Source of the DNA: a virus
Virus record (IMG/VR): IMGVR_UViG_3300021405_000055
Span: 1 to 20,174 of that record
DNA length: 20,174 nt
Reading direction: 5' to 3' (one strand)
Positions 114 through 13,848 of this stretch are shown in pieces. The notes under the pieces are model-generated. The model did not search any database. It was not told the origin of the DNA and worked only from the letters and a program-made list of their open reading frames with translations. Position numbers and translations under genes: made by a program. The number at the start of each line of letters is the position of its first letter. Within the stretch, counting starts at the first letter, position 1.

Positions 114-119
114 AAGGAA

Positions 120-149: not shown

Positions 150-159
150 TAGGGGTGGA

Positions 160-324: not shown

Positions 325-336
325 GCCCGCTAAACC

Positions 337-900: not shown

Positions 901-925
901 TAAAAAATCCCATGCTAAGCAGAAG

Positions 926-1756
926 TTAACCGCCAACTTTATAACGCGAGCGTTTCATTCCGAGAGCCGGATCGCCGCGCCAGTGCGCTCGCACATATTC
1001 CAATTTACCCATCTTGATTCGCAGATGTGCCCGGCAGAAATGAAGCGCCTTTTTCCCCGTCAAATGAGCTTCGTGTTCTCCGTCATCCTCTTTCGGTGGG
1101 TGCACGCTCAGTTGGATTTCGGTCCAAGCGTGCAAGGGAAACTTGCCAACACCGGCTCTCAGCAAATCCCTTTCGAGGCCACGGTGGGGCATAGACTGCC
1201 TGCGGCCGAGAATCTTTGGAGAATTGATCGCAGCGAGGGCTGCATAAAGAAAATACTGCGCTTTAATGTGCAGGCGTCCAGTTTTGTCGTGCGCCGGGGC
1301 TGGCGTTATGAGACAAGGAGGGTCGTTGGACAGTAAGGCTAATTTGCCACCCGGTGTGCCCGTCAGCAACTCGCGATTTCCAAAGGACGAGTGCATAGTC
1401 GCGATGCCTGACCGAACGTCAGGGGCTTGAAGTAAAAACCCCTCCCGTTTTTCGGGGTCGCGATACTCAATCCACGTCTTAGGCGCAGGAAGAAAGGCCA
1501 GGGTGCCGTCGAAGCCCTCCCCACTCAGGTGTTCCGCCATGAGTTTGTCGCGAAGATCGTTCAACATTTCCAGAACGTCGGTTACATCGAAGCAGTGTGC
1601 GTCTGCGAGAAGCGGCGCAATGTCATAGCCGTGAATATATTCCCGCTTCTTCAACGGAAGCGTGAGGCGCTTGACAATGCGGTGGGCGAGGGGCGTCATG
1701 GGTTCCGTCGCATAGTATAGTGAAAAAACGGGTACATATCTGTCATCTGTCGGCAT
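926..1756 (-). CDS. Hypothetical phage protein, 276 aa
   Basis: The start ATG at 1756 overlaps the end of the upstream gene by 14 bases, so translation is probably coupled. No signal peptide or membrane segment is seen. The C-terminal 45 residues carry a striking pattern: HFCRAHLRIKMGKLEYVRAHWRGDP followed by RSRYKV. A similar H-x-RGH ... V-x-x-HWRG ... Y-x-V ending is known in uncharacterised phage proteins, and the conserved His, Arg and Trp residues suggest a nucleic-acid contact or a small catalytic fold. The function is unknown. The stop TAA at 926-928 lies 25 bases before the methyltransferase start. Confidence 0.75.
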   Translation of the reverse strand: MPTDDRYVPVFSLYYATEPMTPLAHRIVKRLTLPLKKREYIHGYDIAPLLADAHCFDVTDVLEMLNDLRDKLMAEHLSGEGFDGTLAFLPAPKTWIEYRDPEKREGFLLQAPDVRSGIATMHSSFGNRELLTGTPGGKLALLSNDPPCLITPAPAHDKTGRLHIKAQYFLYAALAAINSPKILGRRQSMPHRGLERDLLRAGVGKFPLHAWTEIQLSVHPPKEDDGEHEAHLTGKKALHFCRAHLRIKMGKLEYVRAHWRGDPALGMKRSRYKVGG

Positions 1757-1919
1757 CCGCGCCGAGGATCGCCCGAGACAGGGTATTTTCGACGCGAAGC
1801 TGTATGATTTGTCGAATGTCGCGGTCGGTGCATTCTCCTGACGTGCGGCACTTGCGAATGGCGGTCAGACAATCCACCGCAACATCTTCGGCCTTTTTCT
1901 CAATTTCGGTGGGCGTCAT
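1743..1919 (-). CDS. Hypothetical protein, 58 aa
   Basis: I chose the ATG at 1919 because GGAG sits 7 bases upstream. The longer frame from 1958 would overlap the previous gene by about 60 bases. The product begins MTPTEIEKKAEDVAVDC and looks all-helical, with two Cys residues and many charged residues. It overlaps the upstream gene by 20 bases and the downstream one by 14, so it is a tightly packed member of the leftward operon. No family was recognised. Confidence 0.6.
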   Translation of the reverse strand: MTPTEIEKKAEDVAVDCLTAIRKCRTSGECTDRDIRQIIQLRVENTLSRAILGADADR

Positions 1920-2157
1920 TGCGCTTCTCCGCGTAGTCATTGATGGCCTTGGCCACAAAATCCCAATGGTGCTTCATGCCCGCCGCGAAGTCGTCCGGGG
2001 AAACGTCGGCTGCGATGGCGAGCCTAACCGCTAAGGCGTGAAGGCCATTCAGGATCGCCGAAACGTCATCGCCATAGACCTTCATCGCGGCCTTGAGAAT
2101 GCGACCCTCCTTTGAGGACAGAATACCGGCCATCAGGTCTTTGGCTGTGAGACTCAT
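1900..2157 (-). CDS. Hypothetical helical protein, 85 aa
   Basis: ATG at 2157 with a purine-rich CGGGAAAAAC just upstream. The product (MSLTAKDLMAGILSSKEG...) is predicted soluble and mostly helical, without Cys, a signal peptide or a membrane segment. It sits between the lipoprotein gene and a 58-aa gene, and its end overlaps the next gene by 20 bases. The function is not recognisable. Confidence 0.7.
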   Translation of the reverse strand: MSLTAKDLMAGILSSKEGRILKAAMKVYGDDVSAILNGLHALAVRLAIAADVSPDDFAAGMKHHWDFVAKAINDYAEKRNDAHRN

Positions 2158-2187
2158 GTTTTTCCCGAGTAATTCCGTAACAACCGG

Positions 2188-2529
2188 CTACTGCACGATC
2201 TCGACGGCGGTGAGCCAATAGCCATCGCTGCATGGAGAGAAGCGGCGCGAGTTGTAGTGGACCTTGACAATGGCGCCGGTATCTACCGCGCGCCGCAGCG
2301 TGTCGAGGACGGCGGGGTTGACGATGGTGAACCACATGTCCTCTTTGGACAGCGAGCCGGTGCCGTTGCGCATGACCCCAAGGCTCAGATCGAACGCCGG
2401 GTAGTCCATGCAGACCAGCGGCGTGACGTTGGAGAGCTTTTTTGCTTGGCCGATAGCTTCCACATCGGTTTGAGTATTTCCGCAGCCGGCGAGCGCCAGA
2501 GCGGTCATCAGAATTGCAATCCGTTTCAT
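2188..2529 (-). CDS. Small phage-encoded lipoprotein, 113 aa
   Basis: The N-terminus MKRIAILMTALALAGCG is a classic lipoprotein signal: two basic residues, a hydrophobic core and a lipobox L-A-G-C with Cys at residue 16. The mature part would be anchored by lipid in the inner or outer membrane. It contains the segments DMWFTIVNPAVLDTL and VKVHYNSRRF and two further Cys. GGAGA lies 6 bases before the ATG. Lipoproteins in phage early operons can act in superinfection exclusion or, in lysis cassettes, as o-spanins. The position among early genes, away from any visible lysis gene, makes exclusion the more likely guess, but nothing in the sequence proves it. Confidence 0.75.
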   Translation of the reverse strand: MKRIAILMTALALAGCGNTQTDVEAIGQAKKLSNVTPLVCMDYPAFDLSLGVMRNGTGSLSKEDMWFTIVNPAVLDTLRRAVDTGAIVKVHYNSRRFSPCSDGYWLTAVEIVQ

Positions 2530-2553
2530 TGGATTCTCCGTGTTAACTTGTTG

Positions 2554-2763
2554 TTACTTTTCATTCCAAACGCGAAGTGCCTTGCGGCCCTCGTCCGTCA
2601 CCGTCACATAAACGGCAGGCAGATCGTCTCCGCTCACATAGCCGTCGCGAAACATGGCGCGGACAGTCCTCGCGCTACCGCAAAGGTCGTTGAACGTACC
2701 CGCGCTCACGCGGCCGGTGCCGTTCAGCATGAGGGCGATGATTTCTTTTTGGTGCTTGGTCAT
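2554..2763 (-). CDS. Small winged-helix-like protein, 69 aa
   Basis: The ATG at 2763 is preceded by GGGAAAAT. The product starts MTKHQKEIIALMLNGTGRVS and ends with VYVTVTDEGRKALRVW. The pattern (helix, short turn, helix with TVRAMFRDGYV, then a beta wing ending in TDEGRKAL) resembles one winged-helix unit of MarR or phage-type regulators, which commonly have an 'LT-x-EG-x-x-AL' wing. DNA binding is therefore plausible but unproven. The leaders of this gene and the lipoprotein gene share a similar GTTAAC-containing stretch. Confidence 0.65.
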   Translation of the reverse strand: MTKHQKEIIALMLNGTGRVSAGTFNDLCGSARTVRAMFRDGYVSGDDLPAVYVTVTDEGRKALRVWNEK

Positions 2764-2791
2764 ATTTTCCCGGTTAACCTGTCGTTTGTCG

Positions 2792-2971
2792 TTACTCTGA
2801 ATTGCCGTCGTATCTTATCGTTCCATCTTGAATCAGACCCATCGGGTCCGGACCGTATGGTGTTTTGCCGGTGCTGCGCCAGACTTTGCCGTCCCATTTG
2901 TACAGCGTGCCGGTGATGAGATTGAGCCATTCATCGCCAAGATTAGGTTTAACGGATTTGCCTTTTTTCAT
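2792..2971 (-). CDS. Hypothetical protein, 59 aa
   Basis: A complete small frame from ATG 2971 to TAA 2792-2794. AGGA is placed 7 bases before the ATG, and the gene starts 8 bases after the HNH gene ends. The product begins MKKGKSVKPNLGDEWLN and contains two W-x-G type beta motifs (LYKWDGKVWRS and IRYDGN). These suggest a small beta-rich fold like those on phage decoration or 'carbohydrate-like' surface domains, but in an early operon the role is unknown. Confidence 0.6.
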   Translation of the reverse strand: MKKGKSVKPNLGDEWLNLITGTLYKWDGKVWRSTGKTPYGPDPMGLIQDGTIRYDGNSE

Positions 2972-2979
2972 TTGTGATC

Positions 2980-3417
2980 CTACGAAAGCATCCCAGCCCG
3001 CGCCGCAAACACGATGCTTCTCATCTTAACCAAATCCCCGCGCGCTGCATAGAGTCTTTCCGCGAGCAACACCGGATTAATTCCGACGATGGACCAGAAG
3101 CCGCGCTCGCCGATGCGATGCTGTTCTCTGTGGCAGTCGTCACACAAAGGAACGGCCCATTTGTCTGCTGGTTTCTTGCCTATGCCGCCGTGTTTGTTGT
3201 GGGTGCCTGATTGCATTCGCACATGAGCGGCTTGGCTCGGTTCGTCGTTGCAGCCTAGGCACGGGAGAGTCCTAATCATTGCCAGGTAGACCGGATCGGA
3301 ATCGCCGACGACTTTTAGTTTGATGCGCGGCGCTATGCCGAATGCGCGTTTGAGTAGGGCGCCAGGCGCGTCTGGTGGTGTTAGGCGTTGGGGGTGTTGC
3401 AGTTTCATTTGGGTCAC
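2980..3417 (-). CDS. HNH-type endonuclease (DUF968/YbcO-like)
   Basis: The protein is 145 aa from GTG at 3417, or 142 aa from ATG at 3408. Neither start has a clear ribosome binding site, and the GTG lies inside a family-1 repeat. The central region holds the signature of small phage HNH nucleases: CLGC, then AAHVRMQSGTHNKHGGIG-KKPADKW, then PLCDDCHREQH. The four Cys of two C-x2-C pairs would hold a structural zinc, and the His residues would form the metal-dependent active site. Relatives such as YbcO sit with phage recombination genes and cut branched or single-strand DNA. The neighbouring coiled-coil and OB-like genes fit that setting. Confidence 0.8.
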   Translation of the reverse strand: MTQMKLQHPQRLTPPDAPGALLKRAFGIAPRIKLKVVGDSDPVYLAMIRTLPCLGCNDEPSQAAHVRMQSGTHNKHGGIGKKPADKWAVPLCDDCHREQHRIGERGFWSIVGINPVLLAERLYAARGDLVKMRSIVFAARAGMLS

Positions 3418-3455
3418 GAGAGTTTGTTTGTTCCGTTCCGCCGGACTCGGTCACC
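3410..3455 (+). repeat. Family-1 two-block repeat, copy A
   Basis: Left arm TGGGTCACGAGAG (3410-3422), 18-base spacer, right arm CCGGACTCGGTCACC (3441-3455). It fills the junction between two leftward genes. Read on the coding strand, the right arm contains the TGA stop of the upstream gene and the left arm contains the GTG start of the HNH gene. Confidence 0.85.
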
Positions 3456-3930
3456 TGAGGTCGTCTTGCCCGAAAGTTTCCTGCCACACCTTGCGCAAAA
3501 CCTCAACGCGCGCTTTCAGTTCGTTGGTCTCGCACTCGCAACGCCCGGTTTCGATGAAGGCGTTGAGCAGCGAGCAAACAAACATTCTCTCTGCGTCACG
3601 CGGCGCCGTGGGGCGCGGCTGATAGTATTGCTGGCCGTTCGGCTTTGCTGGCGCGGCGCCGTTGCGTTGCGGCTCCGTGAACTGCTGAAAATCCCCACGA
3701 GGCTCCGCGCGCTGCTGCGGCTCGACGGCAATCTTCTTGACACCGATGATATTCTTAAACCCCTTGTCGCTTTCGGTATACGCAAGCTCGTACTTGTTTC
3801 CCGGTTCGAATTCCCGGATACGATCCTGCTTCACTGGCCACCATTCGTTGTTGGCGCCTTTGATGCTGCCGTATTGCTTGCCTTCGGCCGGGGGCTTCAC
3901 GAAAGTCACGTCAACGGTTGCGGTCTGCAT
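3451..3930 (-). CDS. Putative OB-fold ssDNA-binding/accessory protein
   Basis: I chose the ATG at 3930 (159 aa). It lies right after the upstream gene's stop, and the N-terminus MQTATVDVTFVKPPAEGK starts a coherent beta-rich domain. That domain (residues about 5-60) alternates strands and glycine turns (VTFVKPPAEGKQYGSIK, WWPVKQDRI, YELAYTESDKG, NIIGVKKI), which looks like a small OB fold of the kind used for single-stranded DNA or RNA binding. It is followed by a Gln/Pro/Arg-rich linker and a helical C-terminus with C-E-C. Together with the upstream coiled-coil gene it probably forms part of a recombination or replication-support module. The family assignment is by pattern only. Confidence 0.65.
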   Translation of the reverse strand: MQTATVDVTFVKPPAEGKQYGSIKGANNEWWPVKQDRIREFEPGNKYELAYTESDKGFKNIIGVKKIAVEPQQRAEPRGDFQQFTEPQRNGAAPAKPNGQQYYQPRPTAPRDAERMFVCSLLNAFIETGRCECETNELKARVEVLRKVWQETFGQDDLR

Positions 3931-3934
3931 TGTC

Positions 3935-4717
3935 TCACAAGCTCCGTTCGTAGGTTGATTTGATGCCATCCGGCAGTTCGCCAGTAGCTTCGCGGAATCG
4001 CTTTGCGTCCTTAATAATCTGTTTTTTGAGATTGTCGCTGCATCCCATGATGGTAATGGCTGAACAGGCATCCCCCACAGTAAAAACCTCGGTCGTCCTC
4101 ATGCTCAGGGCTTTGTTTCCCATCACGGAGGCGATGCGAACTGGGACGTTGCGTTCGGCTGTGGCGGCGGCGCGGTCGGTTTTCTGGAAGGCTTTGAACG
4201 CTTGGTCCGCGTCGGCAATGGCGCCACCAACGTCAGTGCATTCGCCTTCCTCGGCATTCAGGATGGCCTCTTGCTCGCGCGCCTCGGCTTCGCGGGCTTC
4301 GCGCTCGGCTCGTTCGGCTTCCTCGCGCAACCGCTGTGCTTCACGCAGGCGCGCGGCTTCGACGGCGTTGTTGTATTTGGACAATCGCGCCTTGGCGAGT
4401 TCGTAGAGCTTTTCGAGGGGCTGGCGCACGAGGCGGTAGGGCTTGTTGATCCGTTCCAGTTCGGCGTTGAGCGGATCGACCTGCGGCTTGCGCTCATCCT
4501 CCATCGTCTGCAAGGCAACGCGGGTGCGTTCGATCCATGCCGCGTATTGCTTGGCGCCGTCGAAGTTTTCGATGACCGGATTATTCTCGGTGAATGTCGA
4601 AAGCTCGGCCATCGCCTCCTTGGCGCTGTCAATCGGACCTGGAGGCGAGTTTCCGCCGATGGCAAGCCGGCTGTTCGTTTGCTCGGCGAGTTTGTTGTGG
4701 TCGGTGCGGTCAAGCAT
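3935..4717 (-). CDS. Coiled-coil protein of phage recombination module, 260 aa
   Basis: ATG at 4717 with GGAG 8 bases upstream. After a flexible N-terminus comes a long charged coiled coil (about residues 70-150) with a run of Glu/Arg/Ala-rich heptads. A compact C-terminal domain ends in KRFREATGELPDGIKSTYERS. This layout, a coiled coil followed by a small C-terminal domain, is common in phage proteins encoded next to single-strand annealing or exonuclease genes, and those proteins are mostly uncharacterised. Its stop is 5 bases before the start of the OB-like gene, so the two are translationally close and may act together. Confidence 0.75.
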   Translation of the reverse strand: MLDRTDHNKLAEQTNSRLAIGGNSPPGPIDSAKEAMAELSTFTENNPVIENFDGAKQYAAWIERTRVALQTMEDERKPQVDPLNAELERINKPYRLVRQPLEKLYELAKARLSKYNNAVEAARLREAQRLREEAERAEREAREAEAREQEAILNAEEGECTDVGGAIADADQAFKAFQKTDRAAATAERNVPVRIASVMGNKALSMRTTEVFTVGDACSAITIMGCSDNLKKQIIKDAKRFREATGELPDGIKSTYERSL

Positions 4718-4733
4718 TTTTCAACTCCAACGT

Positions 4734-4784
4734 CCGTGTGAATTTCCGTGTCGCCAAAGCCACCCGTGATCCAGAATGACCCAA
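4734..4784 (-). repeat. Family-2 two-block repeat, copy a
   Basis: This 51-bp block matches 5527-5577 at 40 of 51 positions with no gaps. On the coding strand it starts TTGGGTCATTC, continues GATCACGGG, and after about 10 variable bases ends GACACGGAAATTCA-x-ACGG. It occupies nearly the whole spacer between two leftward genes, beginning just after the TAG stop of the upstream gene. Confidence 0.85.
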
Positions 4785-4786
4785 GC

Positions 4787-5236
4787 CTACCTTGTCGCTT
4801 CCCGTTCCTCATACTCATCATCGGCATAGTAGTCGCCATACTCTTCTTCGGCTTCGACCGCCTGGGCGCAACGCTCCAACTGAAAGGTTGCATTCCCTTC
4901 GACAGCACCAACAAAAGCCCCGTCGAAATCCGACATGCCAAGAACTTCCGACGTGTTGGAATTGGCTTCCTCCCCAACGATCTTCAAAACCCGATCCGCA
5001 ATCCGCGCCCAATGGAGCACAAAGTCCGCCATGTCCCGGAACTGATCCGGCGACGGTGAAGGGGAGATATGCGGCACATACAACCGCGCCAGAGTTTGAA
5101 CGGCCTCGCGATGCACGGTCGCAATCGCGTTATGGCGCCCGTTATTTGCTCGGCTGAGAACGTCGATCAAGGTCTGGCGGTCCTTCATGACCGGCTCGGT
5201 GGAAACGTCGAAGTCGCCTGTGATCTTGTCGGTCAT
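4787..5236 (-). CDS. Hypothetical acidic-tailed protein, 149 aa
   Basis: I chose the ATG at 5236 because AGGGG lies 6 bases before it. A GTG at 5275 would add 13 residues, but these are encoded by the edge of a family-1 repeat. The product starts MTDKITGDFDVSTEPVMKD, has a helical middle containing FRDMADFVLHWARIADRVL, and ends in a very acidic Tyr-rich tail (EEEYGDYYADDEYEE). Acidic tails like this can mimic DNA or bind basic or ssDNA-binding partners, but that is inference. It sits directly upstream of the coiled-coil gene. Confidence 0.7.
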   Translation of the reverse strand: MTDKITGDFDVSTEPVMKDRQTLIDVLSRANNGRHNAIATVHREAVQTLARLYVPHISPSPSPDQFRDMADFVLHWARIADRVLKIVGEEANSNTSEVLGMSDFDGAFVGAVEGNATFQLERCAQAVEAEEEYGDYYADDEYEEREATR

Positions 5237-5267
5237 TGGAAGCCCCTGTTGCGGTGTTAGGTCGATT

Positions 5268-5305
5268 TGGGTCACGGGTATGGCGGTGGTTACGGTGCGG
5301 TCACC
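5268..5305 (+). repeat. Family-1 repeat, degenerate copy C
   Basis: TGGGTCACGGG at 5268-5278 and GCGGTCACC ending at 5305. The arms are shortened and the spacer differs, but the layout is the same as copy A: on the coding strand the right arm holds the TGA stop of the upstream gene (AGGTGA) and the left arm holds GTGACCCAAAT, identical to copy A at that point. Confidence 0.65.
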
Positions 5306-5510
5306 TGATGATGGCGCTTCTTATTTTAGCCATGCGTTTCATCCGGTCCGCAGTGTCGTCAACTTCATGGTAAACGTATTTTTCGCCTTCGCAGACTAAG
5401 CATGGCACTGCGCGCTTAAAAAAGTAGCCGATTGTCCTAGGAGCAAAAGGAAACCAAGTTCTACCTTCTCCTTCGCAGGCGGCGCAGACAATGCGCGTTA
5501 CAATAGTCAT
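5301..5510 (-). CDS. DnaJ-type zinc-finger small protein, 69 aa
   Basis: ATG at 5510 with AGGAG 7 bases upstream. The product carries two C-x2-C-x-G-x units: CAACEGEGR near residues 9-17 and CLVCEGEKY near residues 37-45. This is the pattern of the zinc-binding repeat of DnaJ-like proteins and of many stand-alone phage zinc fingers. Between them is an aromatic stretch (WFPFAPRTIGYFF). The C-terminus is helical and basic. It probably binds zinc and a protein or nucleic acid partner; the target is unknown. Its stop codon lies within repeat copy C. Confidence 0.75.
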   Translation of the reverse strand: MTIVTRIVCAACEGEGRTWFPFAPRTIGYFFKRAVPCLVCEGEKYVYHEVDDTADRMKRMAKIRSAIIR

Positions 5511-5526
5511 TCCACTCTCCTAAAGC

Positions 5527-5577
5527 CCGTATGAATTTCCGTGTCGTATTCGTAGCCCGTGATCTGGAATGACCCAA
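5527..5577 (-). repeat. Family-2 two-block repeat, copy b
   Basis: 51-bp partner of 4734-4784, in the same orientation relative to transcription and again filling the gap between a stop codon and the next ribosome binding site. The central 9-10 bases are almost fully different between the two copies, while both flanking blocks are conserved. Confidence 0.85.
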
Positions 5578-5583
5578 CACCTA

Positions 5584-5814
5584 CTACTGCTTCGCTATCT
5601 CGATCAGAAAGTAGATAATTCCGCCGATATTGACACACACACTCAACGCAAATCCCAAGACCAACACTTCGTACTTCTCTCTCAGTTGCTCCAACAACAA
5701 TTCCCGTCCTAAGACCATGGCGTGGTTCTTCATCGGGTCGGAATGTTGTGCTACGGCTACCGCGTTGATGGCGGAAGTGTTGTTGCGGGGAGAGAAGGTA
5801 AGAAGTTTAGACAT
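5584..5814 (-). CDS. Small single-span membrane protein, 76 aa
   Basis: ATG at 5814; no ribosome binding site is visible, and the ATG is immediately downstream of family-1 repeat copy B. The first 50 residues are soluble (MSKLLTFSPRNNTSAINAV...), with a short helical stretch LLLEQLREKYEV. The C-terminal 25 residues form one hydrophobic segment, LVLGFALSVCVNIGGIIYFL, followed by a short IEIAKQ tail. This is the layout of a tail-anchored inner-membrane protein with its N-terminus in the cytoplasm. Possible roles are host-membrane modification or superinfection exclusion; none is proven. Confidence 0.65.
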   Translation of the reverse strand: MSKLLTFSPRNNTSAINAVAVAQHSDPMKNHAMVLGRELLLEQLREKYEVLVLGFALSVCVNIGGIIYFLIEIAKQ

Positions 5815-5817
5815 GGT

Positions 5818-5864
5818 TGGCTCACGAGAGGTTGGAGTGTTCTTTGCCGCCGGACTCGGTCACC
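5818..5864 (+). repeat. Family-1 two-block repeat, copy B
   Basis: Left arm TGGCTCACGAGAG (5818-5830; one change from consensus), 19-base spacer, right arm CCGGACTCGGTCACC (5850-5864). It spans the spacer between the first and second genes of the leftward operon. Confidence 0.85.
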
Positions 5865-5870
5865 TTATCA

Positions 5871-6056
5871 CTACGCAAACCGAAGGTTGCGCGCGTGGAT
5901 CACTACGTCGTTGCTGGCGTTCGCGAGCCGGACATAGTAGGCATTCGGCTTATCGTGTTTGGCAACAACGACGCCGTTCATTGGCGGGTCGAAAGTCAGG
6001 TCTTGGATTTGGTCGCCGGGCGCAAACTTGAAGTGCTCTTTTTCCTTGGTAGTCAT
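5871..6056 (-). CDS. First gene of leftward operon, 61-aa SH3-like protein
   Basis: ATG at 6056 with AGGGG 8 bases upstream. It is the first gene after the leftward promoter. The product begins MTTKEKEHFKFAPGDQI and reads as alternating short beta strands (KFAPGDQIQDL, NGVVVAKHD, AYYVRLAN, DVVIHARNLRF), consistent with a small SH3-like barrel. The position opposite a cro-like gene is where lambda-type phages carry the CI repressor, but this protein has no HTH and is too small, so it is not an obvious repressor. It could be an antitermination or anti-host early protein; this is inference only. Confidence 0.7.
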   Translation of the reverse strand: MTTKEKEHFKFAPGDQIQDLTFDPPMNGVVVAKHDKPNAYYVRLANASNDVVIHARNLRFA

Positions 6057-6083
6057 GGCTAGTCCCCTGTGTTCGATAATTGG

Positions 6084-6112
6084 AGATTAAAGCCGCCCTT
6101 GAATGTTGTCAA
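6084..6112 (-). promoter_or_regulatory. Leftward early promoter
   Basis: On the minus strand TTGACA (6112-6107) is followed after 17 bases by TAATCT (6089-6084). Transcription would start near 6077, leaving a leader of about 20 bases with a good ribosome binding site for the first leftward gene. The -35 box lies inside the CTTGA/TCAAG operator. Confidence 0.7.
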
Positions 6113-6123
6113 GCACTACTTGA
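6098..6123. promoter_or_regulatory. Operator: three alternating CTTGA/TCAAG half-sites
   Basis: CTTGA (6098-6102), six bases, TCAAG (6109-6113), five bases, CTTGA (6119-6123). Each adjacent pair forms a perfect inverted repeat, so the middle half-site is shared by two overlapping dyads. The array covers the -35 boxes of both divergent promoters, the expected position for a regulator that switches between them. The YdaS/Cro-like protein encoded at 6155 is the likeliest binder. Confidence 0.65.
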
Positions 6124-6148
6124 AATTATTTTGGAACTGTGATTACCT
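6120..6148 (+). promoter_or_regulatory. Rightward promoter, probably leaderless mRNA
   Basis: TTGAAA (6120-6125), 17 bases, TTACCT (6143-6148). The -10 ends 7 bases before the A of the ATG at 6155 and there is no ribosome binding site, so the cro-like mRNA may start at its own AUG, as for lambda cI from PRM. The -10 match is weak. An alternative -35, TTGTCA at 6106-6111, would need a different -10. Confidence 0.45.
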
Positions 6149-6154
6149 ACGTCC

Positions 6155-6358
6155 ATGACGACAAAGCAGGCACTCAAAGAGGCCATCGGACGGGCAGGCG
6201 GCCCTAGCGCCCTAGCTCGGATTTTGAAGATCACGCCCCAGGCTGTGGACCAATGGGAACAAATCCCTGTGGCTCAGGTGCTAAAGATCGAAAAGGCCCT
6301 CCAAATCCCCAGGCATGAGCAGCGGCCGGACTTTTACCCACCTCCAGGTGCAGCATGA
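6155..6358 (+). CDS. YdaS/Cro-like HTH regulator
   Basis: A 67-aa DNA-binding protein. The pattern KEAIGRAGGPSALARILKIT followed by PQAVDQWEQIPVAQVLKIEKAL is typical of the YdaS antitoxin / Cro-like family: the helix-turn-helix spans about residues 17-36, the recognition helix is around QAVDQW, and the family ending 'RP-D-x-YPP' is present. It is the first rightward gene, adjoining an operator with three half-sites, so it probably represses the leftward promoter and its own. There is no ribosome binding site. The last four bases overlap the next gene as ATGA, giving translational coupling. Confidence 0.85.
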   Translation: MTTKQALKEAIGRAGGPSALARILKITPQAVDQWEQIPVAQVLKIEKALQIPRHEQRPDFYPPPGAA

Positions 6359-6698
6359 TTCGCAACCGCGCCACCCCCGAAGGCCGTGAGATTGGCGCCC
6401 GCATGGCCAAGTTCTGCGACGACGAGGAGCCGAAAGCTCGGCTTCGCTTCCCGGAATTGCCGCCCCGCTGCAATTCCTGCGCTTTTCGCCAAGGTGACCA
6501 CGTGGCCAACGGCTCCCCCGAGACTCAGATGGATGCCCTGAAATGCGTCATGGAGGGTCGGGAATTCTACTGCCACGAGCCGGCGCGGGAGGGGATGCTG
6601 TGCATGGGCTGGGCATGTTTATGCTGGCAAAAGAGAATCCTGACTTCCGGGAGGTCGTTTGGCCTTTCTCCAACGAGTCCGATCCGACAGTCGTGTGA
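6355..6698 (+). pseudogene. Cys-rich phage protein gene with one-base frameshift
   Basis: The frame from ATG 6355 encodes a convincing Cys-rich domain: CNSCAFRQGDHVANGS near residues 39-54, then LKCVMEGREFYCHEP and LCMGW. At about 6611-6615 (TGGGCATG) the coding sense jumps to the -1 frame. There ATGTTTATG continues as MFMLAKENPDFREVVWPFS and ends in ESDPTVV with TGA at 6696-6698. Frame 0 after this point is Ser/Arg/Pro-rich nonsense. Inserting one G into the G-run would restore a single protein of about 114 aa. The Cys set probably binds zinc; the function is unknown. This may be a real mutation or a sequencing error; no classical slippery heptamer is present. Confidence 0.7.
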
Positions 6699-6746
6699 CC
6701 CCGATGAGCCATCGCCCACTCGGCCAAGAATGAGACAACAACTTCA

Positions 6747-7454
6747 ATGACTTCAAGCCCCCGCGAACGCCTGGCCCAAGCCCTCGACACCATCGGGGAT
6801 TACGCCCAACTCGCTTATAAGGCCGGGGTGACACCGCGGGACTTCCTCAATGCGCAGTCGGGGCGCCCCTGTCCCACCATTCCATTCCTGCGGATTTGCG
6901 TGGCGATTCGGCATGATACCATGCCGGAAATCCCCTATTCCATGCCGGAAAGACCTTCTGACTTCGATTTTGGCTTCCTTTCCATGGCGCTTTGCCTCAA
7001 ACGGGGCCTAAACGGGCACGATCAGGCGCTGGCCGGCGTCGTTGCCGGTCTTTCCCCTGTGACAATAAGTCGCATAGAACGGGGTGATGCGCTGGCAATC
7101 GGTATTATTGTTCGTGCATGTAAATATATGAATATCCATTGTTTTTCGTATCTTTCCGTGACCGACACGCTGTCGATTTCAAAACCTGCCGGGCGCCCCG
7201 TGCGTCCGCATGTTTCACGTGAAACATTGCCCATAGAACCCTCTCCGCTCAATGTCCTACTGAAAACACGCGCAAAAACGCTGAAACGGGTGGATATGCT
7301 CGGCAAAGCGCTGGAACGGCTAGAGGGCAAGAAGGACTATGCGGACGCTTTTGAGCGGCATCAGCGGTATTTGGCGGCGCTGGCCGAACAAACGCTGGCA
7401 ATTGAGGCGGTTAGGCTTGCGGGAAGTCGGGAAGTGAAGGTTTTGGGTCATTAG
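6747..7454 (+). CDS. XRE-like HTH regulator, 235 aa, with embedded parS
   Basis: A helix-turn-helix domain of XRE type spans about residues 77-135 (FLSMALCLKRGLNG, GLSPVTISRIERGD, then an Ile-rich helix). The N-terminal 55 residues (RERLAQALDTIGDYAQLA ... AGVTPRDFLNAQSGRP) look like a second, weaker HTH, so the protein may have tandem DNA-binding domains. A linker around residues 140-170 includes HVSRET, encoded by the parS palindrome. The C-terminus is a helical, coiled-coil-like region suited to oligomerisation. It may be the phage repressor or an early regulator. No ribosome binding site is seen before the ATG. Confidence 0.75.
   Translation: MTSSPRERLAQALDTIGDYAQLAYKAGVTPRDFLNAQSGRPCPTIPFLRICVAIRHDTMPEIPYSMPERPSDFDFGFLSMALCLKRGLNGHDQALAGVVAGLSPVTISRIERGDALAIGIIVRACKYMNIHCFSYLSVTDTLSISKPAGRPVRPHVSRETLPIEPSPLNVLLKTRAKTLKRVDMLGKALERLEGKKDYADAFERHQRYLAALAEQTLAIEAVRLAGSREVKVLGH
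7211..7226. promoter_or_regulatory. parS-like ParB-binding palindrome
   Basis: TGTTTCACGTGAAACA is a perfect 16-bp palindrome (18 bp with the flanking A and T) and equals the chromosomal parS consensus bound by ParB in Caulobacter and many other bacteria. It lies inside the HTH gene and encodes H-V-S-R-E-T. The same peptide motif occurs in alphaproteobacterial RsmG (GidB) proteins, whose genes also overlap parS. No parA or parB gene is present in the window. Confidence 0.8.
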
Positions 7455-7471
7455 AATCCGCGCGAGCGACT
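7445..7471 (+). repeat. Possible degenerate family-2 repeat start
   Basis: TTGGGTCATT at the 3' end of the HTH gene matches the first ten bases of both family-2 copies, and is followed by AGAATCCGCG where those have (after two variable bases) GATCACGGG. As in the intact copies it sits at a gene end. The second block is not recognisable, so this may be chance. Confidence 0.3.
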
Positions 7472-7501
7472 GTGATCTCACGTTCAATCATTGGTGGAGA
7501 T

Positions 7502-7936
7502 ATGGGGAAGCAAAGAAAACAAAAGATCGAAATACGAACGGTCCACGGAACGAGAAAAGTGCCGGCGGTAATCGTCGGCGCACTCGCGGCCCACGGTCGA
7601 TTAACAAATGGCGGTGTGAGCGATTTCATTTTCAATATCACACACCTTCCAAGCGGATTTGGATTTTCCGCAGACTTTCATTCCTTGGATGATGCGATTG
7701 CGGCGGCTGGAAAAATTCAACATCTGAGAAAAGATTGGGAAGTTTTTGATCCTCGCATGGTAAGCAAAACATTTCTGTCTTCTTTGAAGGATATCTACAA
7801 TGAATATGACGCCTTTGTGCTCAAGCGGACGAAAGACGATCCGCGTCGCGTGTTGGCTGAGACAACTTATGCGACCGATTTAAACGGTTATAAGTCTCAA
7901 GACTCTATGGCGGTAAAATCCGCTCAGGATAGTTGA
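7502..7936 (+). CDS. Hypothetical protein, 144 aa
   Basis: I chose the ATG at 7502, preceded by GGTGGAGAT; an upstream GTG at 7472 would add ten residues. The product begins MGKQRKQKIEIRTVHGTRKV and has an alpha/beta feel: IVGALAAHGRLTNGGVSDF, then an aromatic segment ITHLPSGFGFSADF, then helices with DDAIAAAGKIQHLRKDW. No catalytic motif is visible. Its last 11 codons lie in block 1 of a family-3 repeat, so the C-terminus may have been altered by that element. Confidence 0.65.
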   Translation: MGKQRKQKIEIRTVHGTRKVPAVIVGALAAHGRLTNGGVSDFIFNITHLPSGFGFSADFHSLDDAIAAAGKIQHLRKDWEVFDPRMVSKTFLSSLKDIYNEYDAFVLKRTKDDPRRVLAETTYATDLNGYKSQDSMAVKSAQDS

Positions 7937-7967
7937 GAGACAAGGTAGCCAAGCTGCCCAAACAAAC
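7903..7967 (+). repeat. Family-3 two-block repeat, copy a
   Basis: Block 1 is CTCTATGGC-G-GTAAAATCC; exactly 39 bases after its first base comes block 2, AAGGTAGCCA, ending CAAACAAAC. It spans the stop codon of the 144-aa gene and the start region of the next gene. The same two blocks at the same distance occur at 10340-10404 (inverted) and 11287-11350. Confidence 0.8.
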
Positions 7968-7975
7968 CTCAAACA

Positions 7976-8209
7976 ATGACTCAACGCTCGCTCAACAAAA
8001 CCGACCAACAAATCACAGCCTTTGTAATGGAAACAATGCAAACTTTCAGTTCACTCTCTCCCGCAGAACGAAGAGACTTGCGCGATGCACACCGAAGGCG
8101 TTTTGTTGATGAGAGTCTGACGGCGCGACGGCCTTATATCTTTGCGAATCACGAAGCGGAAACGCTGTTTGATAATCTGGATTTTTCACAGGGGGAAGAA
8201 AGTGGCTGA
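7976..8209 (+). CDS. Hypothetical protein, 77 aa
   Basis: ATG at 7976, nine bases after family-3 repeat copy a; no ribosome binding site is visible. The product (MTQRSLNKTDQQITAFVME...) is charged and helical, with SLSPAERRDLRDAHRRRF and an acidic end. The stop overlaps the GTG start of the DUF1937 gene, so the two are coupled. No family was recognised. Confidence 0.6.
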   Translation: MTQRSLNKTDQQITAFVMETMQTFSSLSPAERRDLRDAHRRRFVDESLTARRPYIFANHEAETLFDNLDFSQGEESG

Positions 8210-8666
8210 AACACTGCGCTATCTCGCAAGTCCTTACACTCACTACCCCGCCGGCATGGAGCAAGCTTTCATCGACGTGGCGATTCTAGCCGGTCGTTTG
8301 TTTGCTATCGGCATCCCGACATTCTCGCCAATCTCTCATGCTTTTCCTTACGTCAAATATGGGAATCTTGACCCTCTCGATTATCCAGCTTGGAAGCCAG
8401 TTCAAGAGCGCTTGATGGACGCCTGCGATTCACTCATCGTCGCTCACATGCAAGGATGGGAATCGAGCGTTGGAATCGCACATGAAGTTTCGTATTTTGA
8501 GCGGAGCAAGAAACCGATCTTCGACCTTGATTGCGAGAGTTTGGTTTTGGTGCAGCGTGATCCTCACAAGCATTTCGACGAACGGATGCAGCTAGGCATC
8601 AAGGATATGCCGAGCTATCGCGGTGAGTTGAAGCCGCTGGCGATGCCGAATCCGAAAGGCCAATGA
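8202..8666 (+). CDS. DUF1937 protein (deoxyribosyltransferase-like)
   Basis: I chose the GTG at 8202, which overlaps the upstream stop and has GGGGGAAG just before it (154 aa). The N-terminal YLASPYTHYPAGMEQAF and the stretch IPTFSPISHAFPY are hallmarks of DUF1937, which belongs to the nucleoside 2-deoxyribosyltransferase-like fold. The conserved Y-L-A-S-P-Y loop, the D-P-L-D-Y-P segment, and CDSLIVAHMQGWESSVGIAHE follow in the expected order; the last contains the Ser-x-G-x-x-x-E type nucleotide-contact region. A role in nucleoside or nucleotide salvage, or in handling modified bases, is inferred from the fold. It is close to DNA-modification genes. Confidence 0.8.
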   Translation: MAETLRYLASPYTHYPAGMEQAFIDVAILAGRLFAIGIPTFSPISHAFPYVKYGNLDPLDYPAWKPVQERLMDACDSLIVAHMQGWESSVGIAHEVSYFERSKKPIFDLDCESLVLVQRDPHKHFDERMQLGIKDMPSYRGELKPLAMPNPKGQ

Positions 8667-8667
8667 A

Positions 8668-8976
8668 ATGCCGCGAGAAATCGGAACCGACGATATGTTC
8701 ACCCCACGCGAGCGCGGACGATTCGGCGACAACGAATCAGCGGACAAAAGAGTAAGACCGCAACGCGTCAACGGCGCCTCTGATCTTGTCGATCTGACCG
8801 TCTGGATCATGATGGACGATCCGAACAAGAAGGCGATTGCTATTGCCGACCCGGCAAAGCCCACCAAAACTTGGATTTGGCTCCCGCGGTCGCAAGTTGA
8901 ATACGTCAAGGCCGAGCCAGGATTGATCGTGCTCACGCTGCCGCAATGGCTGGCGAAGGATAAGGGACTGATATGA
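8668..8976 (+). CDS. Hypothetical phage protein, 102 aa
   Basis: ATG at 8668, one base after the DUF1937 stop. The last four bases overlap the methyltransferase start as ATGA. The N-terminal 30 residues are charged and probably disordered. The C-terminal half (WIMMDDPNKKAIAIADPA, WIWLPRSQVEYVK, IVLTLPQWLAKDKGLI) resembles a small beta-domain seen in many uncharacterised proteobacterial phage proteins ending in 'P-x-W-L-A-x-x-KGL'. Gene order suggests a link with the methyltransferase. Confidence 0.65.
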   Translation: MPREIGTDDMFTPRERGRFGDNESADKRVRPQRVNGASDLVDLTVWIMMDDPNKKAIAIADPAKPTKTWIWLPRSQVEYVKAEPGLIVLTLPQWLAKDKGLI

Positions 8977-10337
8977 ACGCGCTCGCCAAATACGACGCCG
9001 CTTGTCGCGCGCTCGCCGACGCTGTGAGCGCGGATGAAGTAATGAAGGTGCATGTCGAGGCGCGGGCTATTGAAGCTGTGGGGCGTGTGGCGAAAAATAT
9101 AGACTTGGAAATAGACGCTCGCACGCTGCGAATACGAGCGGAAGCCCGATTGGGTGTGATGATCCGTCAAGGCGAGGAAAGCGGCATCATCGCGACTCAT
9201 GGGGGCCGGCGCAAAGGTCAAGATTCGGGGAGTGAATCTTGCTCAACCCTAGAAGATGTCGGTATCGATCGGCACCTGTCGGCAGTCTCGCGCAAAATCG
9301 CAGACCTTGGGCAAGACGGTGTGGACGATATGCTCCAACGCTTCGGAACGGAAAGCAAAAAGCGCAAGAAACTCGCCTTGGACGTAATCAATGGGGAACT
9401 GGCGTCGCGGAACGCGCAAAGCCGGCGGCAACTTGCTCAAGAACTCTCCGATGCTACAGCCCTTCAACCGACCGGCCGCAAATTCCCCGTGATCTATGCG
9501 GACCCCGCATGGCGCCGCAAAGCCGGAATAGGCAACCGAGCCTACGAGAATCACTACACGACCGAAACGTGGGACGAAATTCTCGCCATGCCGGTGGCGA
9601 ATCGCACCCTTCCTGATGCTTGGCTATTCCTCTGGATACCCCGCGCCCATCTTCTTGCCCTTCACCCCACGGAAATCGAAACGCCGCTAGGCCGCTGCAA
9701 GGTCAAACTCCCACTCGCCTACGCCGTAGCTCAAGCATGGGGCTTCGACGCCTATTCGACGTGCTTCATCTGGACAAAAACCGATGAGGAATGCCCCGAA
9801 GATCATGGCCTCGGGCTTATCGTGTGGGATCAGGATGAGGTTCTGTGCCTCTTTAAACGAGGCCGCGGCCTTCCCAAGCCGAATACCGATGTCAAGGTGG
9901 GATCGAATCACCGCGAGCGCGCAACCGACCATTCGGCAAAGCCTACGTATTACCGTGACATGATTAACGCGATGACGGGCAATCTTCCTGTGCTCGAATT
10001 GTTTGCGCGCGAGGACGACGAACACATTCTGCCCAATAACTTTTACACATGGGGCAATCAGTCTCGTAATACCGCAGAACGAATCACTGACGACTCAAGA
10101 ACGAATCACGACTCCAAAACCGTTCCCGATTCGTATGGCACTGACGCCGCCCAATCCAAAGCGTCAGTGTCCGAACCCGCGTCCGACCATCAACCGAAAG
10201 CCCCTCATGTGCCCGTGGCGGACGCGGGTTCACCTTCTTCGTTGCCGGAATTAGTTTTGCCGGGACTTGCGCCGACGTTTGCTGAGTATGCTGCGTTTAC
10301 CGATCTAACAAACCCGCTGCATGGGAGAGCGTCTTAG
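8973..10337 (+). CDS. MT-A70 family adenine methyltransferase
   Basis: 454 aa. The N-terminal 160 residues are helical (MNALAKYDAACRALADAV..., then RAEARLGVMIRQGEESG, GRRKG and a winged or helical stretch), a DNA-reading extension common in phage MT-A70 proteins. The catalytic domain starts at PVIYADPAWRRK, with DPAW at residues 177-180 in place of the usual DPPW, followed by NHYTTETWDEI, LFLWIPRAHL, FDAYSTCFIWTK and the motif KPTYYRDMI. It ends with LELFARE, then a tail of about 90 residues rich in Ser, Asp, Pro and Thr, unlike most relatives. The likely reaction is N6-adenine methylation of phage DNA. It is an orphan enzyme, coupled to the upstream gene. Confidence 0.85.
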   Translation: MNALAKYDAACRALADAVSADEVMKVHVEARAIEAVGRVAKNIDLEIDARTLRIRAEARLGVMIRQGEESGIIATHGGRRKGQDSGSESCSTLEDVGIDRHLSAVSRKIADLGQDGVDDMLQRFGTESKKRKKLALDVINGELASRNAQSRRQLAQELSDATALQPTGRKFPVIYADPAWRRKAGIGNRAYENHYTTETWDEILAMPVANRTLPDAWLFLWIPRAHLLALHPTEIETPLGRCKVKLPLAYAVAQAWGFDAYSTCFIWTKTDEECPEDHGLGLIVWDQDEVLCLFKRGRGLPKPNTDVKVGSNHRERATDHSAKPTYYRDMINAMTGNLPVLELFAREDDEHILPNNFYTWGNQSRNTAERITDDSRTNHDSKTVPDSYGTDAAQSKASVSEPASDHQPKAPHVPVADAGSPSSLPELVLPGLAPTFAEYAAFTDLTNPLHGRAS

Positions 10338-10339
10338 TT

Positions 10340-10404
10340 GTTTGTTTGGTTAGACTGGCTACCTTGGCGTGCGATTGTTCTGTGAGATTCTTACGGCCAT
10401 AGAG
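10340..10404 (-). repeat. Family-3 two-block repeat, copy b (inverted)
   Basis: On the minus strand this reads CTCTATGGCCGTAA, then a variable middle, then AAGGTAGCCAGTCTAACC and AAACAAAC. It matches copy c at about 53 of 65 positions, and the two form an inverted pair around the gene at 10428-11282. Confidence 0.85.
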
Positions 10405-10427
10405 GGTGGGAAAGGGGAGTTTCTGGG

Positions 10428-11282
10428 ATGCCTTGTTACGAACCGCTGTTCTATTGGGTCCGTGAGCGCGAGCGCATCCGCGTGATCAAGGAGAAAGGCA
10501 AGCCGCAGCCTTGGACCAGCGACGCTATCCTAGCGACCTACCGCTTTTGCAACGTCCGACGTGAGGATGACCGGGTCACGGTATGGATTCGGGACAACAT
10601 CCGCAATCGTCCCGCTTTCGCTGTCTCGCCTTTCCTCTGGCTCATGCTTTGCATCGCGCGGCAGATAAACTGGCCTGACACGCTTACCGAACTAATAGAC
10701 CACTGCGCATGGCCCGACACTACGCGGTTTGATTTTTGCGAGAAGATGACCGCTGTTTTGAACGCGCGCAAGGAACGGGGGGAGAAGGTATACACTGGCG
10801 CTTACATGATTTCCGCGCCCGCACAGAAGGGAGCCGATAAACAAAAATATATTGCAGAGACGGTCATCGGCGACCTGTGGAAACGGCGCGGCGGTTTCAA
10901 AGCATCAACGCTGCAGGGCACCCACGAATGGATCACGCGGTCGAACGGCTGGGGGCCTTTCATGGCCTACCAGGCCGTGGTCGATATGCGTTTCACCGAT
11001 TTGCTGAAAGACGCTCCCGACGCGGCCCTTTGGGCCGCCGCTGGCCCCGGCACTATCCGCGGTCTGAACCGCGTGCAGGGGCGCCCCGTCGATCGGCCGC
11101 TCACGCAGGGGCAAGCGCTGTCCGAAATGCGGGCCATTTACAAGATAGTGGAAGCCGAGACCGGCGTGCGGATGGATTTCAGCGACGTACCGAACATCCT
11201 CTGTGAGACCGATAAATATCTCCGCGTGAAGAACGGTGAAGGAAAGCCGCGAGCGCTCTACGTCGCCGGAAGAGGACACTAA
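10428..11282 (+). CDS. Putative DNA base hypermodification protein
   Basis: 284 aa; GGGAG lies 8 bases before the ATG. The N-terminal region (FYWVRERERIRVIKEKGKP, PWTSDAILATYRFCNVRRE, DDRVTVWIRDNIRNR) matches the pattern of phage proteins annotated as DNA base hypermodification proteins. These include the helical domain of 5-hydroxymethyluridine DNA kinases and the glutamyl/putrescinyl-thymine pyrophosphorylase group, which have a DNA-glycosylase-like helical fold. Downstream are GAYMISAPAQKG and LWAAAGPGTIRGLNR, the latter like a helix-hairpin-helix/GPG element, then FSDVPNILCETDKY. The usual partner genes (hydroxymethyl-dUMP synthase, P-loop kinase) are not in this window. The gene is bracketed by inverted family-3 repeats. 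The family match is by motif, from memory. Confidence 0.7.
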   Translation: MPCYEPLFYWVRERERIRVIKEKGKPQPWTSDAILATYRFCNVRREDDRVTVWIRDNIRNRPAFAVSPFLWLMLCIARQINWPDTLTELIDHCAWPDTTRFDFCEKMTAVLNARKERGEKVYTGAYMISAPAQKGADKQKYIAETVIGDLWKRRGGFKASTLQGTHEWITRSNGWGPFMAYQAVVDMRFTDLLKDAPDAALWAAAGPGTIRGLNRVQGRPVDRPLTQGQALSEMRAIYKIVEAETGVRMDFSDVPNILCETDKYLRVKNGEGKPRALYVAGRGH

Positions 11283-11286
11283 CAAC

Positions 11287-11350
11287 CTCTATGGCCGTAA
11301 AATCCTAACAAGCAAATCGACAGCCAAGGTAGCCAGTCTAACAAACAAAC
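11287..11350 (+). repeat. Family-3 two-block repeat, copy c
   Basis: Begins CTCTATGGCCGTAAAATCC four bases after the upstream stop and ends with AACAAACAAAC. The distance between the blocks (39 bases) is identical to the other two copies. It lies in the spacer before the ribosome binding site of the next gene. Confidence 0.85.
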
Positions 11351-11365
11351 AGCATCGGGGGAATC

Positions 11366-11671
11366 ATGACACGCTACCCATTGACCGACCCAGCATCAAC
11401 AGACTCAACACTCGGTTTCTTCGAGCGCCGAGAATGCATCGAAATGAATCTCGCTTTCGCCCACGCCATGTTAGCGGCAAGAGAACGCGGCCAGGAGAGC
11501 TTCACGCTCGGCCCTAAGATCGACGATACCCCACTCGTCGGCGCCTATTTCCCTCCACAACCAACACAATCCTTCATGTCATCGAGTGCAGCAACGTGCG
11601 TTAATGCGGCGTTGGGGTGGCAGACGCCGGATGCGATGACGGCGGTTCCGAGGAAGAATGGGTTCAGATGA
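11366..11671 (+). CDS. Hypothetical protein, 101 aa
   Basis: ATG at 11366 with GGGGGAATC just upstream. The product starts MTRYPLTDPASTDSTLGFF, has a helical stretch AFAHAMLAARERGQESF, and a proline-rich middle. No motif identifies a function. Its stop overlaps the ATG of the 30-aa gene (ATGA), so translation continues without a gap into the replication gene cluster. Confidence 0.65.
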   Translation: MTRYPLTDPASTDSTLGFFERRECIEMNLAFAHAMLAARERGQESFTLGPKIDDTPLVGAYFPPQPTQSFMSSSAATCVNAALGWQTPDAMTAVPRKNGFR

Positions 11672-11760
11672 CAGACCTAGTGGGCACCTGCCCCAAAGAC
11701 TTTTGGGAAGAATGGATTGCGGAAGGCGACGCAGCCGTCCCCGACTGGAAAACGCGATGA
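11668..11760 (+). CDS. 30-aa micro-gene, coupled at both ends
   Basis: A complete frame of 30 codons starting MTDLVGTCPKDFWEEWIAE and ending PDWKTR. Its ATG overlaps the upstream TGA (ATGA) and its TGA overlaps the ATG of the DUF1376 gene in the same way, which argues strongly that it is translated. The C-P-K-D-F-W-x-E-W-I-A-E-G-D-A-A pattern resembles the N-terminus of longer phage proteins I recall from rhizobial phages, so this may be a shortened version of such a gene. The function is unknown. Confidence 0.6.
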   Translation: MTDLVGTCPKDFWEEWIAEGDAAVPDWKTR

Positions 11761-12512
11761 GCCACCTTCCCTATCGCCCCGAACACGTCAACGACGCCAG
11801 CGCAACCACCGAAGAGTTGACGAACGAGGAACTCGGGGCATTCGTGCGGCTACAGCGGGCGTTATGGCGGGCAGGCGGCTACCTGCCGGACGATCAGAAA
11901 AAACTCGCCAGATATGCCCGCGCGGGCAGCAGATGGGGGATTATCGCGCCTGCGGTAATGGGCAAGCTCAACGCCATCGGCGGCAAAGTCTCATGTCCGA
12001 CGATTCTCATGACGATCTTTCTCGTAGAACAACGCCGAACCAAGGCCGCGAAAGCTGCCGCGCACAGGTTTGGCAAAGCTGACCCCTCTCTGACTTCGCG
12101 TAAGCCATTGGACTCGTTGGAGTCGAACATTACCGTAGCATCAACCGAGCATATGCTTGGAGCTTCCAATCAAAATCAAAACAAGAATCTAGATTCTAAG
12201 ACTCTTAATACAAACCGATCCGCTACAGGTGGGCGAGCAGATGAGTTTTACGAGCAGAGTACGGGATTTCTCATCAAGCGTGTCGGAGTGCGCGGCCTTG
12301 CAGCCCGATCCCAAATCGCTAAATGGCTCGCGGCACTCGACGGGAACGAATCGGACCTGCAAACGATTATGGATGCTGCCGGCGCCGAAAATCTCCAAGG
12401 TGCCCGACTCATAGCCGTCATCGATCAGCGTGTCGGGAACCGCAAGGCCGAACGAAAGCAAGGTCCTCCCCTTCCATTTCCACCGAATCTTGTGATAAAC
12501 AGCGGGAAATGA
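11757..12512 (+). CDS. DUF1376 replication protein
   Basis: I chose the ATG at 11757 (251 aa), which overlaps the micro-gene stop; an extension to 11658 would read through that gene in another frame. The N-terminal domain MSHLPYRPEHVNDASATTEE, then LTNEELGAFVRLQRALWRAGG, LPDDQKKLARYARAG and WGIIAPAVMGKL is the DUF1376 pattern. That domain is found in phage proteins in the position of replication initiators or helicase loaders. A Ser/Asn-rich linker (about residues 115-160) follows, then a helical C-terminal domain (FLIKRVGVRGLAARSQIAKWL). It likely binds the replication origin or the host helicase; no origin iterons are seen in the gene. Confidence 0.75.
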   Translation: MSHLPYRPEHVNDASATTEELTNEELGAFVRLQRALWRAGGYLPDDQKKLARYARAGSRWGIIAPAVMGKLNAIGGKVSCPTILMTIFLVEQRRTKAAKAAAHRFGKADPSLTSRKPLDSLESNITVASTEHMLGASNQNQNKNLDSKTLNTNRSATGGRADEFYEQSTGFLIKRVGVRGLAARSQIAKWLAALDGNESDLQTIMDAAGAENLQGARLIAVIDQRVGNRKAERKQGPPLPFPPNLVINSGK

Positions 12513-12709
12513 CCGAATACTTCTCAGCCCAACCCTACACCGAAGAGGAACGCGAACGCGATGACGCGTTGAAGCGCATGTCCTACGGCCGATGGAGCCT
12601 GCGCAGATTGCTTCGCCCCAGCCGTAAGGCTGCGCTACAGTCCGGCAACGCAAAAAAGACCAAGAAACGCCGGTCATTCAAAGCCCAACCGTGGTGGCTT
12701 GAGGATTGA
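12509..12709 (+). CDS. Small basic protein, 66 aa
   Basis: The ATG at 12509 overlaps the DUF1376 stop (ATGA), with GGGA just before it. The N-terminal 20 residues are acidic and Tyr-rich (MTEYFSAQPYTEEERERDD). The rest is strongly basic (RWSLRRLLRPSRKAALQSG, KKTKKRRSFK) and ends PWWLED. Such a charge profile suggests nucleic-acid binding. It is the last gene of the rightward early block. The stop codon TGA lies within a degenerate family-2 repeat. Confidence 0.65.
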   Translation: MTEYFSAQPYTEEERERDDALKRMSYGRWSLRRLLRPSRKAALQSGNAKKTKKRRSFKAQPWWLED

Positions 12710-12731
12710 TCACGGGGGCTCTTGACGGAAT
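12708..12731 (+). repeat. Degenerate family-2 repeat
   Basis: GATCACGGGGGCTCTTGACGG followed by AAT resembles the second part of family 2 (GATCACGGG-TGGCTTTGG-CGACACGGAAAT). It starts within the stop codon of the preceding gene, in the same orientation relative to transcription as the intact copies. Confidence 0.4.
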
Positions 12732-12756
12732 GGCAGGGAATCGCGATGATGAGGTT

Positions 12757-12782
12757 CGGCCTTAGTGGCTCTCGGGCCGTTT
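12757..12782 (+). terminator. Hairpin 1 of intergenic block
   Basis: CGGCCTTAG (12757-12765) pairs with CTCGGGCCG (12771-12779) over nine positions, including one G-U pair and one mismatch, with a five-base loop, followed by TTT. Together with the hairpin at 12818 it may end early transcription. The T-run is short, so it may be an RNA structure rather than an efficient terminator. Confidence 0.4.
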
Positions 12783-12795
12783 GTTCGTAGTGTTG

Positions 12796-12815
12796 TTGCA
12801 GCCCCCCCCTGCAAG
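12796..12815 (+). other. C-rich hairpin
   Basis: TTGCAG and CTGCAA flank seven C residues (eight C in a row in total). The 6-bp perfect inverted repeat has a pure-C loop, a rare composition here. It lies between two similar hairpins in the block upstream of the small terminase gene; its role is unknown. Confidence 0.35.
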
Positions 12816-12817
12816 GG

Positions 12818-12851
12818 AACGGCCTTATGGGGCAACTCATGGGGCCGTTTT
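12818..12851 (+). terminator. Hairpin 2, probable terminator
   Basis: AACGGCCTTATG (12818-12829) pairs along all 12 positions (two G-U pairs) with CATGGGGCCGTT (12838-12849), with an 8-base loop. Four T residues follow. It shares the ends CGGCCTTA and GGGCCGTTT with hairpin 1. It stands between the early block and the terminase genes, where transcription is often controlled and where cos or pac sites are found. Confidence 0.5.
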
Positions 12852-12883
12852 CGCATTGTGGCGAGACTGATTCCAGGTGATTC

Positions 12884-13836: not shown

Positions 13837-13848
13837 AACGCGCAGGCC

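Follow-up and report, generated by a model that had tools for sequence, protein, structure and literature searches.

The partition systems of phage-plasmids of the P1, N15 and RedRock type encode both a ParA and a ParB protein of their own. In the case of the Bacillus phage phi29, the host segregation protein Spo0J traps the phage DNA in spores, as stated in a passage of PMC9437464 citing Meijer et al. 2005, so the use of a host ParB is already known in one phage group. The phi29 record contains four TGTTTCACGTGGAACA sites, each one mismatch from the 16-mer described below, and no annotated ParB gene. To our knowledge, phi29 is the known precedent for host-ParB dependence in phages, and among the matches listed in our search of the literature on parS, ParB or Spo0J with phages we saw none that surveyed phage genomes for parS, subscription papers and preprints falling largely outside that search. 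In bacteria, parS is the centromere-like DNA site by which chromosomes are separated. According to excerpts of PMC10197239 and PMC8367383, the consensus parS is the 16-mer TGTTTCACGTGAAACA, and a 22-bp parS DNA from C. crescentus that appears in the latter has, as its inner 18 bases, the palindrome that we describe here in a phage.

A chromosomal-type parS within a phage gene

The window, i.e., the whole stretch of DNA analysed, comprises 20,174 bases of an IMG/VR virus record. At positions 7211–7226 it carries the self-palindromic 16-mer, which matches the chromosomal-type parS consensus at 16/16 positions and is, by sequence, an exact parS; one extra base on either side extends it to an 18-bp perfect palindrome, ATGTTTCACGTGAAACAT (7210–7227). 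With up to three mismatches allowed, 7211–7226 was the sole match in the window, and 9 of 100 dinucleotide shuffles of the window yielded any match at this threshold. The number of exact copies expected in the window was 2.8e-6 with independent bases and 6.2e-6 under a first-order Markov model.

The site lies within a gene encoding an HTH-type protein of 235 aa (6747–7454, + strand), defined from the ORF list, an HTH_3 match and alignments, in which parS forms codons 156–160 (VSRET), between the HTH half and the C-terminal part. The HTH_3 match (residues 86–131, E 0.00035) is weak and below Pfam's cut-off. The linker holding parS differs in both length and sequence among relatives, and matching and alignments thus confirm the original prediction of an exact parS and an 18-bp palindrome in the variable linker of an HTH-type gene. 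The VSRET codons at parS are seldom used (product of frequencies 0.0005). AlphaFold, run with a four-sequence alignment, gave a mean pLDDT of 43, which is too low to use; residues 135–166 had no predicted secondary structure, a result that carries no weight at such confidence.

Relatives were identified by scanning viral contigs with the HTH protein or its alignments, i.e., parS was not used as bait. These scans recovered the record G001 and three further viruses, the proteins of which share, in alignment A3, 82% (L137, record G003), 71% (L003, record G002) and 47% (L140, record G084) amino acid identity with that of the window. Since window bases 1–15451 match G001 without difference, as far as locus L002 extends, the window and G001 represent one virus, and the comparison set consists of four distinct viruses, window included. 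The 16 parS bases were intact in the window and in 3/3 further viruses found by protein similarity, and the surrounding palindrome was conserved at 18/18 bases in L137 and L140 and at 17/18 in L003. In the four-way codon alignment, the longest invariant run of the whole gene was the 17-nt TGTTTCACGTGAAACAT at parS, the next being 8 nt. The same codon was found in all four viruses for VSRET (5/5) versus 15/60 of the other invariant-residue columns (chance about 0.001, in a test that omits M and W as well as the first six columns of the alignment, and takes codons as independent). The corresponding three-way test (window, L137 and L003) gave a chance of about 0.036 for five-codon identity, which is weak evidence alone.

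A proportion of 0.31–0.35 of the fourfold sites differ between the window, L137 and L003, as do 30/44 of those compared between the window and L140. Within the 20 codon columns ahead of parS, 8/60 nt were kept in the three-way alignment (gaps counted). The L140 protein is devoid of the C-terminal part, yet parS is kept near the end of its ORF, and all 16 parS bases are constant in the four viruses while the HTH region diverges. Judging from these alignments, parS is maintained in this phage group by selection at the DNA level. No relatives of the HTH protein were found in the cultured phages, plasmids and bacterial genomes searched, and a four-sequence profile HMM had no match in 80 parS-bearing viral loci or in 80 terminase-related loci. 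The examined parts of the Rhizobium phage RHph_TM26 and of ct7L0027, each of which shares a gene with the window, contained no site at three or fewer mismatches.

Early region, partition genes and inferred host

The parS gene comes third among the ORFs of an early operon that reads rightward and is headed by a Cro/YdaS-type repressor gene (6155–6358, + strand; YdaS_toxin E 3e-12, P22_Cro E 5e-9, phrog_35) and continued by a listed ORF with no assigned function (6355–6750, + strand). More rightward early genes (8142–12512, + strand) encode DUF1937, MT-A70 methyltransferase, HMUDK and DUF1376/primosomal-type proteins, and the terminase small and large subunits are encoded at 12884–15684 (+ strand). 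The leftward early genes (2980–5510, − strand) comprise an HNH-type gene, p3451, an exonuclease-like gene (3935–4717), p4787 and p5301. A scan of positions 5400–7600 for promoters and terminators gave 1 and 0 sites, respectively, which is not above shuffles. This early neighbourhood is conserved in part: the cro-type gene had a match in G084 only, the ORF preceding the parS gene had partial matches in G002 and G003, and the DUF1937 gene downstream of parS had matches in G002, G003 and G084.

Inverted repeats of 63 nt (10346–10408 and 11283–11345, 79% complementary) flank the HMUDK gene (10428–11282), for which tblastn against G002, G003 and G084 gave no match, and for these two reasons the gene looks like an inserted cassette. 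We assume that the HMUDK-type protein of the window phage may be involved in thymine hypermodification, which could matter for ParB binding. A dispersed repeat, CCGGACTCGGTCA, was present near gene boundaries at 3441, 5850, 12941 (one mismatch), 16261 and 18995, always on the + strand; it also occurred in pieces of G001, G002, G003 and G084, and was absent from phi29 and from the examined part of the pelagiphage HTVC027P. The portal region of the window (16718–18960) is split between two ORFs that overlap (342 and 498 aa), and the corresponding place in G001 is taken by a single portal ORF of 747 aa.

In G001, the leftward strand runs on to an integrase-like gene located just beyond the window edge (phrog_1 E 7e-6; PF00589 E 0.003, below cut-off; no Pfam match at 0.001). 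An integrase-like gene was found in two of the four records, one of them below Pfam's cut-off, and none was found in G002 and G003. Its presence in these two records points to a temperate life, and the records without it would fit either an extrachromosomal prophage or incomplete sequences.

Each of the four records has one exact copy of parS, G002 having two more sites at three mismatches. ParB_N (PF02195), HTH_ParB (PF17762) and the ParA-type AAA_31 domain (PF13614) had no match in G001, G002, G003 and G084 (61–67 kb). The four records are linear, have no end repeats and are possibly incomplete, and Pfam would miss a highly divergent ParB, so the missing parA and parB do not constitute proof. 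The original prediction had noted that no parA or parB was nearby, and this extends to the larger records, in which the search for more parS that it advised yielded no second exact copy. As no parA or parB was detected, we propose that the ParB involved is that of the host.

The relatives of the window terminase in genome contigs suggest that the hosts are Alphaproteobacteria: the first seven were from this class, the best being a Rhizobiales MAG at 55% identity, and other phyla rank lower among the best 80 of 94. The window terminases had no match in G002 and G003, so the host of these two viruses is less certain. The exact 16-mer was found in 17/20 alphaproteobacterial genomes (23 copies in about 116 Mb), these 20 having been chosen by us among the 80 terminase-related loci, and 9/17 host loci read the 16-mer as VSRET within an rsmG-like ORF, as recognised by a crude RsmG motif. 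No exact site was present in the 1.47 Mb of the 80 terminase-related loci, and parS is thus not general among related prophages.

parS sites in other viral contigs

The exact 16-mer was present in at least 120 stretches of IMG/VR viral contigs, versus 20, 10 and 5 stretches for three control palindromes of equal base composition, the last of which has the same CACGTG core. The contig-level counts that follow rest on 80 of these at least 120 stretches. ParB_N matched 4/80 contigs at E ≤0.001, three of them above Pfam's cut-off, and 24 of the 28 contigs of at least 30 kb had no ParB_N match. Two to five parS copies were observed in 15/80 viral loci versus 0/30 loci of two controls, and additional one-mismatch sites occurred at 8.6 per Mb (0.70 Mb) versus 0 (0.27 Mb) for the first two controls. 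The first site of each locus was inside an ORF in 41/80 cases and between ORFs in 39/80, as determined with a longest-ORF caller. The flanking proteins (n = 138, at most two ORFs per locus, proteins >600 aa omitted) included terminases (7/138), a gokushovirus-type scaffold, replication initiators, GroES and a phi29-type capsid protein. Given these phage-type flanking proteins, at least part of the parS contigs are phage; others may derive from the host or from the edges of prophages. Two short viral contigs with no ParB_N match, L019 (2657–3444) and L046 (10535–11462), each harbour five exact parS within less than 1 kb.

Five contigs (L021, L029, L031, L044 and L068), the TerL proteins of which are 65–90% alike, have an exact parS 17–135 bp ahead of terL, and the next longest run common to all five in the same stretch is 2 nt. 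However, this group was gathered by its parS pattern, so the perfect conservation is biased and only the shared place before terL counts. No ParB_N match was found on these short contigs. Their TerL resembles that of the cultured Pelagibacter phage HTVC027P (62%, with L029 as the query), in which CGTTTCACGTGAAACA, one mismatch from parS, is intergenic in the stretch between the terminase subunit genes (L282:15897), making this phage a possible laboratory model. The examined regions of four records from isolates with a TerL related to this group, HTVC027P among them, had no exact site.

Explanations for the phage parS and comparison with known systems

Chance or coding constraint alone can practically be dismissed as the origin of the site: although the three-virus codon-identity test is weak alone (0.036), about 6e-6 exact matches are expected in the window, and the comparison of four viruses yields an invariant run of 17 nt at parS versus 8 nt elsewhere. 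The original prediction had likewise held a chance exact match to be very unlikely, and the question that it raised, whether homologues keep the palindrome beyond codon need, is answered by the conservation of the 16 bases in 3/3 of them and by the length of this run. It had also considered that the palindrome might be an operator bound by the HTH protein of the same gene, the match to parS being coincidental. The palindrome does sit within an HTH-type gene, but this proposal is extremely unlikely, since there is no second copy at three or fewer mismatches in the window, the HTH region diverges over the four viruses while the 16 bases remain constant and equal to the ParB consensus, and the 16-mer is more frequent in viral contigs than the control palindromes are, no HTH relative having been detected in the 80 parS-bearing loci. 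A phage-encoded partition protein outside Pfam's ParB families might bind the site, as many phage proteins have no annotated family and the records are possibly incomplete. However, the site is the host consensus rather than a private one, and a ParA-type ATPase domain was not found either; we therefore regard such a protein as very unlikely.

The phage could also exploit ParB by titration, with replicating parS copies pulling ParB, and with it SMC or regulators of division, away from the host chromosome and halting segregation or division. Titration shares the sequence evidence of the main explanation and would agree with the multiple copies in 15/80 parS-bearing viral loci versus 0/30 control loci, but it appears rather unlikely in this phage group, which has one exact copy per record, because copies should accumulate if the site served for titration. 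The spreading of ParB from parS might alternatively silence or tune early genes and couple the state of the prophage to the cell cycle of the host. The position of parS, about 0.85 kb beyond where the cro-type gene stops, and the partial conservation of its surroundings would favour such regulation, as would the repression of promoters adjoining parS3 and parS4 of P. aeruginosa that the title of PMC5521831 reports. However, in the five contigs of the terL group parS precedes terL, outside any early operon, and we consider regulation to be about as improbable as titration.

We consider it likely that parS has been kept in this phage group because host ParB binds to it. The binding itself is judged very likely, on account of the exact match and the selection on the site, and the borrowing of host ParB suggested in the original prediction is in this respect partly supported, at the level of sequence tests, its operator alternative being unlikely. 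Host ParB would recognise the phage parS, close as a CTP clamp and slide into the adjoining phage DNA, after which the phage genome might be kept at the location of the host origins by ParA of the host together with polar or nucleoid factors, and copies of this genome could be carried to both daughters by the host machinery. The benefit would be that an infecting or not-yet-integrated temperate genome survives cell division. An integrated prophage has no need for a partition site, which counts against this explanation, and we only tentatively identify segregation or positioning as the main benefit. It seems an evenly balanced question whether many unrelated phage groups lacking ParB keep an exact chromosomal parS, coding or non-coding, for positioning or segregation by host ParB, as a widespread viral strategy. 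If ParB does bind, phages would join host chromosome segregation with 16 bases and without coding for any partition protein, and the placement of the phage genome and its survival of host division would become directly testable. It would also add to the host dependence of the phi29 kind, and would explain the recurrence of an exact host centromere in viral collections.

The chromosomal parS running through rsmG in Alphaproteobacteria has the identical 16-mer, likewise read in frame as VSRET; however, the host site is in an rsmG-like ORF (9/17 loci), whereas the phage site is in an HTH-type gene without detected parA or parB. The systems of the P1, N15 and RedRock type resemble the locus described here in that the genome of a temperate phage bears a centromere site, but they include their own ParA and ParB, neither of which was detected in our four records. 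The likeness to phi29 is that both have one or more parS-like sites on a phage genome in which no phage ParB was found. However, phi29 is virulent, infects a spore-former and has several sites, whereas the phages described here are probably temperate, are associated with Alphaproteobacteria and have a single site in coding sequence. Given one exact site per record rather than several, we suggest that this system may work like that of phi29, rather than being a member of it, and that the single coding-embedded site in probably temperate alphaproteobacterial phages, together with the apparent breadth of parS in viral contigs, looks new.
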